From Planctomycetota bacterium (GTDB taxonomy: Bacteria; Planctomycetota; UBA1135; GCA-002686595): DNA of 64,000 bases. The notes beneath the pieces were generated by a model. That model was not told the origin of the DNA, ran no database searches, and saw only the letters and a program-made list of their open reading frames with translations. How positions within the stretch are numbered: position 1 is the stretch's first letter; each line of letters starts with the position of its first letter. Position numbers and translations under genes: made by a program. The stretch lies in NCBI GenBank assembly GCA_029248265.1, contig JAQWJQ010000224.1, positions 1-64,000 of the forward strand, given 5' to 3'. Below are positions 1,104-3,608 of the stretch, piece after piece.

Positions 1104-1490
1104 TCAGCTCTCCGAGTCTGCGAGGGCCCCGGTCTCGGTGACCGTGACGCTCTCCCAGTCGAGCTTGGGACAGTCGCCGTACAGGTCGTCGAGCCCGTAG
1201 TAGTCGCGAGCCTCATCCTGCTGGATGTGGACGACCACGTCAGAGTAGTCCACGAGGACCCACCAACCGAGGTCCGCGCCCTCTGCCCTGGAGTGGACCT
1301 CGCCCAGGCGCTTCAGCCGGTGATGGACGTCCTCATACATGGCTCGGACGTGGGGGCGGCTGGTGCCGGTCACGACCACGAAGTAGTCGGCGACCTTGAT
1401 GGCGTCGCTCACGTCGTAGACCACGAGGTCCACGCCCTTCTTCTCTTCCACGATCCGGGCGACCGTGGCGGCTAGTTTCTTGGTGTCGAT
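1104..1490 (-). CDS. rsfS: Ribosome silencing factor RsfS, probable AUC start
   Basis: RsfS binds ribosomal protein uL14 and blocks subunit joining in starvation. The body ([20 protein letters not shown], then [19 protein letters not shown]) is typical of the family. The ORF track starts at an internal GTG (1451), but the frame is open upstream and reads [18 protein letters not shown], the expected N-terminal helix of RsfS. No ATG, GTG or TTG precedes it in frame. The codon in the start position is ATC (1488-1490), with GGAGAA about 7 nt upstream. With that start the protein has 128 residues, normal for the family. It lies directly downstream of hppA on the same strand. The family call is secure; the start codon is inference. 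Confidence 0.85.
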
Positions 1491-1503
1491 GGCAGTTCTC
1501 CGG

Positions 1504-1526
1504 GGCCCCGCGCAGAGCGCGGGGCC
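1504..1526 (-). terminator. GC-rich hairpin between hppA and rsfS
   Basis: GGCCCCGCGC and GCGCGGGGCC form a perfect 10-bp stem with a 3-nt loop, 12 nt past the hppA stop and immediately before the GGAGAA ribosome-binding site of rsfS. It has no U-tract. It may attenuate transcription from hppA or limit rsfS translation. Confidence 0.45.
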
Positions 1527-1538
1527 ACCTTCACCGGA

Positions 1539-3608
<2,070 letters not shown>

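Follow-up and report, generated by a model that had tools for sequence, protein, structure and literature searches.

Few bacterial genes are known to retain a near-cognate start codon. The standard example is infC, the gene for IF3, and Escherichia coli pcnB also starts with AUU. In E. coli and Streptomyces, the AUU or AUC start of infC is autoregulated through initiation fidelity (PMC5472188), IF3 destabilising initiation complexes unless they sit on AUG, GUG or UUG (PMC5472188, PMC10158994). Streptomyces sigR has a GTC start and is repressed by IF3 (PMC5472188). Finally, rsfS (ybeB) of E. coli, which encodes the ribosome silencing factor, has a weak UUG start (PMC10917681). RsfS blocks the joining of the subunits and has uL14 on the 50S subunit as its binding site, as is known for the Staphylococcus aureus protein (PMC7125091).

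The rsfS gene described here lies in a window of 64,000 nucleotides, the whole stretch of DNA that was analysed, from an uncultured planctomycete whose genus also includes strain Poly30. We take Poly30 to be Saltatorellus ferox. The rsfS frame (1538-1104, minus strand) opens after TGA 1541-1539 and closes at TGA 1106-1104. Reading of the frame bore out an earlier, sequence-only reading of this DNA, according to which ATG, GTG and TTG are absent from the upstream stop to GTG 1451-1449. On the alignments presented below, the gene almost certainly starts at AUC 1490-1488. The features concerned are the following.

1104..1490, minus strand: rsfS reading frame from AUC onward, 128 amino acids plus TGA; PF02410 and TIGR00090 matches, collinear with RsfS chains of the PDB from residue 3.
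1488..1490, minus strand: probable ATC (AUC) start codon of rsfS; only start-like codons at this column, SD 7 nt away, position of Met1.
1498..1501, minus strand: putative Shine-Dalgarno (SD) core GGAG, 5' of AUC; from the sequence and the family-wide excess of SD cores.
1449..1451, minus strand: GTG, the sole nearby conventional start (codon +13), rejected; not conserved, without SD, inside the first helix.
1504..1526, minus strand: GC hairpin with a 10-bp stem and a 3-nt TCT loop, located 3' of the hppA stop and 5' of the SD; from folding.
1539..3608, minus strand: hppA (membrane pyrophosphatase-like), the 5' neighbour, whose stop lies 48 nt before AUC; an open reading frame with a probable ATG start at about 3608, named from its sequence.

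The sequence-only reading had described ATC as properly spaced from GGAGAA and just 3' of a GC hairpin. Both descriptions hold, since GGAG 1501-1498 ends 7 nt short of ATC and the stem 1526-1504 ends 2 nt before GGAG. The fold (MFE -31.5, z -2.4) does not sequester the SD. When checked as a terminator, the hairpin showed no T-run and was not scored as one. It is present in L020-L023 and absent in L024-L027. Confined to the five closest genomes and leaving the SD exposed, it was rejected as part of the start mechanism. On the 5' side, an hppA C-terminus PWF(I/V) precedes rsfS in many relatives. On the 3' side of the rsfS stop, a long and perfect inverted repeat at about 1077-1036 (minus strand; ACCAGAAGAGGCCGA...TCGGCCTCTTCTGGT) likely forms an intergenic hairpin and has no flanking T-run. 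Further 3', a sensor histidine kinase gene (ORFs 255-1028 and 3-254) is split by an in-frame TAG (257-255, minus strand) that directly precedes a 12-residue motif; the frame is open at this place in L002, L003 and L004 of the same genus. The split gene is likely a pseudogene, an error or a recent mutation.

By its profile matches, the rsfS frame is a member of the RsfS/iojap/YbeB family. It matches PF02410 with E 9e-28 (96.9 bits, curated cut-off 21.6) and TIGR00090 with E 3e-27 (94.5 bits, curated cut-off 56.9). The TIGR00090 alignment begins at residue 7 counted from ATC and GTG 1451 is residue 14, in agreement with the earlier claim that the conserved helix is encoded upstream of this GTG. 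Ungapped alignments to proteins of known structure, which take in the N-terminal helix, relate residues 3-113 of the ATC-started protein to residues 3-113 of S. aureus RsfS (6sj6), 6-116 to 6-116 of 2o5a, and 8-106 to 8-106 of 2id1. Because the numbering matches solved RsfS proteins residue for residue, ATC occupies the place expected for Met1, as had been proposed. Same-genus relatives are 86-97% identical to the window's RsfS along the entire protein, residue 1 included.

The start column was then followed in 42 rsfS loci of the same family (f1), the window and 41 further loci from whole genomes; loci from named records were also aligned. Such an alignment of related starts had been suggested by the sequence-only reading, and it shows an AUC/AUA start that is conserved and linked to an SD. 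The column holds ATC in 29 loci, ATA in 7, ATG in 4, and CTG and TTG in one each, so that every codon is ATG or one base away from it. ATC is found in all nine genomes of the window's genus, including the complete chromosome CP036434 (Planctomycetes bacterium Poly30). ATA accounts for 7 of the 36 Ile codons at the column vs. 4.2% in neighbouring coding sequences (p = 7e-4, uncorrected for relatedness and with two tandem rsfS copies of one genome among the seven). These two copies (L048 and L079, G016:C432) are about 50% identical to the query, and both have ATA with an SD. An SD core, defined as at least 4 nt placed 4-12 nt before the codon, is found ahead of 36 of the 37 non-standard codons, the exception being L037, which has AUC. 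At background positions the figure is 21%, and before standard codons of the family only 1 of 5 (Fisher p = 2e-4). Codons upstream of the column are not conserved and in-frame stops are close by, the frame being closed within 1-9 codons in many loci (five codons in L036, eight in L026) and stops standing at a distance of 5-17 codons in many relatives. The next conventional codon after the column varies from +8 to +78 among relatives.

The sequence-only reading had also named ATG in relatives, together with reads showing ATG, as evidence against an AUC start. ATG is indeed present in 4 of the 42 loci, but these are without SD and one genus looks leaderless. In this genus (g54, L154-L156), ATG stands at exactly the start column but has no SD, and a -10-like box (TAGAAT) ends 7 nt upstream of it. 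In other family loci, -10-like boxes, where found, are at least 24 nt upstream of the rsfS start. Given the position of TAGAAT and the missing SD, the g54 rsfS mRNA is apparently leaderless. Leaderless initiation is known to rely strongly on AUG. Thus, from the comparison of g54 with the rest of the family, start codon and SD appear to change together.

Beyond the family, 160 rsfS loci from 59 planctomycete families were surveyed. From the in-frame stop upstream to the RsfS domain, 53 loci of 13 families have no standard start, and 35 of these 53 have none up to codon +15 either. A standard start is near the column in 38 loci; in the other 69, a standard codon exists only further upstream and may serve as the start. 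Ordinary ATG or GTG starts are found in families such as f7, f34 and f52. ATC starts occur in f4, f76, f81 and one genus of f32, ATA starts in f11, f18 and f24, and ATT starts in f66 and f69. The frame can be very short ahead of the domain, opening just two codons before it in L114 (TGA-CCC-ATA). In f49, f78 and f96, ACG immediately precedes the first conserved RsfS residue, with an AGGAGG-like SD at 5-8 nt in most; two f96 genomes have ACA in its place, with TTG as the next codon. Family f49 and its neighbours, in which ACG is conserved, are probably anammox planctomycetes. In genus g105 of f32 (L120 and L203-L206, mostly complete genomes; maybe a cultured genus), a conserved in-frame ATC follows CTAAAGGTCAC, some 14-16 codons ahead of the domain. 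A standard start is absent in 2 of these 5 genomes, and the ATC is a candidate for an AUC start that would give RsfS an N-terminal extension.

On a tree of the 160 RsfS proteins, the near-cognate start is clustered, yet it has been repeatedly gained or lost. Well-supported branches force at least 15 changes, the best tree has 26 and shuffles have 53; the 'non' labels of L087 and L152 are artefacts, caused by limiting the search to 25 codons. Having too few alignment columns, the tree cannot separate one origin from several. Outside the phylum, 12 of 13 rsfS genes (copies in plasmid-collection records) start with ATG, and that of E. coli with TTG. Taken across Planctomycetota, the maintenance of similarly weak rsfS starts (AUC, AUA, AUU, ACG) suggests a deliberate throttling at the first step of translation.

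Two other genes, taken from the same genomes or their relatives, served as controls, and both have standard starts throughout (frr in 57 of 57 cases, hpf in 30 of 30). As judged by these two genes, the near-cognate start is gene-specific and no general habit of the genome. The parallel with infC, which the sequence-only reading had thought suggestive, is strengthened by these standard controls and by AUU, AUC and ACG starts of infC in the same phylum. Indeed, many other families of the phylum have infC genes that start with AUU, AUC, ACG or CTG. In the window's family (L160-L189), almost all infC genes start with GTG or TTG behind a strong SD, and rsfS has AUC or AUA; hence, autocontrol of IF3 there would not be of the classic kind. 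ACG is rarely among the start codons listed for infC. The infC genes of L261 and L264 (f18) and of L267 (f76) are apparently ACG-started. This supports ACG as a working start in these two families.

How such a start might act can be proposed from the two factors concerned. The selectivity of IF3 and the block of 50S joining by RsfS together imply that a near-cognate start should keep RsfS low in a manner dependent on IF3 and on joining. The initiator tRNA would pair with the near-cognate codon through a mismatch, IF3 would discriminate against the resulting complex, and RsfS synthesis would be slow and would follow the condition of the initiation machinery. Drop-off and reinitiation (PMC10158994) would further predict a minor RsfS form without Met. 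Since RsfS blocks subunit joining, a weak start would at least hold its dose low. In addition, a loop is conceivable, in which more RsfS would slow down 50S joining, near-cognate 30S complexes would be hurt most, and RsfS would limit itself. The opposite sign is also conceivable: during starvation, free 30S subunits would accumulate and titrate IF3, near-cognate starts would improve and RsfS would rise. As a whole explanation, an AUC start whose weak, IF3-discriminated initiation keeps RsfS scarce appears very probable. That initiation on rsfS is inefficient and sensitive to IF3 in the cell is likely. We give real feedback or stress regulation beyond low dosage nearly an even chance. Somewhat more tentatively, rsfS in Planctomycetota may be a second phylum-wide gene of the infC type, whose near-cognate start would make its synthesis read out initiation fidelity and subunit joining, RsfS thereby sensing and limiting what it does to the ribosome pool.

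Pure dosage has to be taken seriously as a rival to regulation. It would mean selection for low RsfS by means of a weak codon, with neither feedback nor sensing of conditions, and we hold this to be somewhat less probable than an even chance. Weak standard starts do likewise elsewhere, as in E. coli rsfS with UUG (PMC10917681). Within the family, the codon drifts among AUC, AUA, CTG and TTG, as expected if weakness alone matters, and one genus has shifted to AUG with an apparently leaderless message. However, non-standard codons (37 of the 42 family loci) prevail over GUG and UUG, even though infC there uses GTG or TTG. Near-cognate rsfS beside such an infC hints that sensitivity, beyond weakness, has been selected.

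The other alternatives to an IF3-discriminated AUC start concern the position or the reality of this codon. Translation could begin at the conventional GTG 1451, yielding a shorter RsfS, the conservation upstream of it then reflecting some other coding or regulatory content. This GTG is the first ATG, GTG or TTG in frame in the window genome, but starting there would cost the protein its 13 N-terminal residues, for which solved RsfS proteins have aligned counterparts, and cut the conserved first helix. In addition, the GTG column reads GTT or CTG in 3 of the 9 same-genus genomes and has no SD. Not conserved within the genus and lacking an SD, GTG 1451 was ruled out as the start, an outcome that we consider very safe. 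An upstream start, by stop readthrough, frameshift or coupling to hppA, with ATC an ordinary Ile codon, is slightly less probable still. Although hppA ends in the rsfS frame in several relatives, it is in another frame or absent in others. The in-frame upstream codons are unconserved with stops nearby in many relatives, and the choice among ATC, ATA, CTG, TTG and ATG together with the SD spacing fits a start. With neither frame nor neighbour conserved, this reading was also ruled out. Finally, an ATG hidden by RNA editing or by sequencing or assembly error has a negligible probability: the window genome is fragmented (313 contigs), but eight other genomes of the genus, the complete chromosome among them, have the same ATC, an agreement of nine genomes that refutes a hidden ATG at the DNA level, and since most of the family shares a near-cognate codon (ATC or ATA at 36 of 42 loci), ATC is neither chance nor assembly error.

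The AUC start with weak initiation therefore remains our reading of the locus, and it has some consequences. A second translation-related gene with a near-cognate start across much of a phylum, where control genes have none, suggests that a weak start can be used repeatedly to control factors that act on the subunits of the ribosome. The rsfS annotations of many planctomycetes, anammox bacteria included, are probably truncated or missing. Moreover, rsfS offers a clean natural series (AUC, AUA, AUU, ACG, and AUG with an apparently leaderless mRNA) for the study of how initiation fidelity evolves. No published report of a near-cognate rsfS start beyond the E. coli UUG, or of the planctomycete pattern, was found in the open-access full-text journal literature. 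If real, the ACG starts would to our knowledge be the first deeply conserved ones in bacteria.

Near-cognate starts as such are already known from infC, sigR and pcnB, and what is unusual here is the phylum-wide spread and the ACG series. Like infC, planctomycete rsfS combines a near-cognate AUN start with an SD, is deeply conserved in this respect and encodes a factor acting on ribosomal subunits; unlike IF3, RsfS does not discriminate between start codons, so that any feedback would be indirect. Like sigR, it is a gene unrelated to IF3 that would be held down by a non-standard start and that start-codon rules misannotate. However, gene, codon and phylum differ, and the case of sigR was shown experimentally, that of rsfS being built on sequence comparison. 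Like pcnB, it would be a single gene whose output is held low by a near-cognate codon; the functions of the two are unrelated. Finally, E. coli rsfS is the same gene, also with an inefficient start codon, but UUG is a standard bacterial start, whereas AUC, AUA, AUU and ACG are not.
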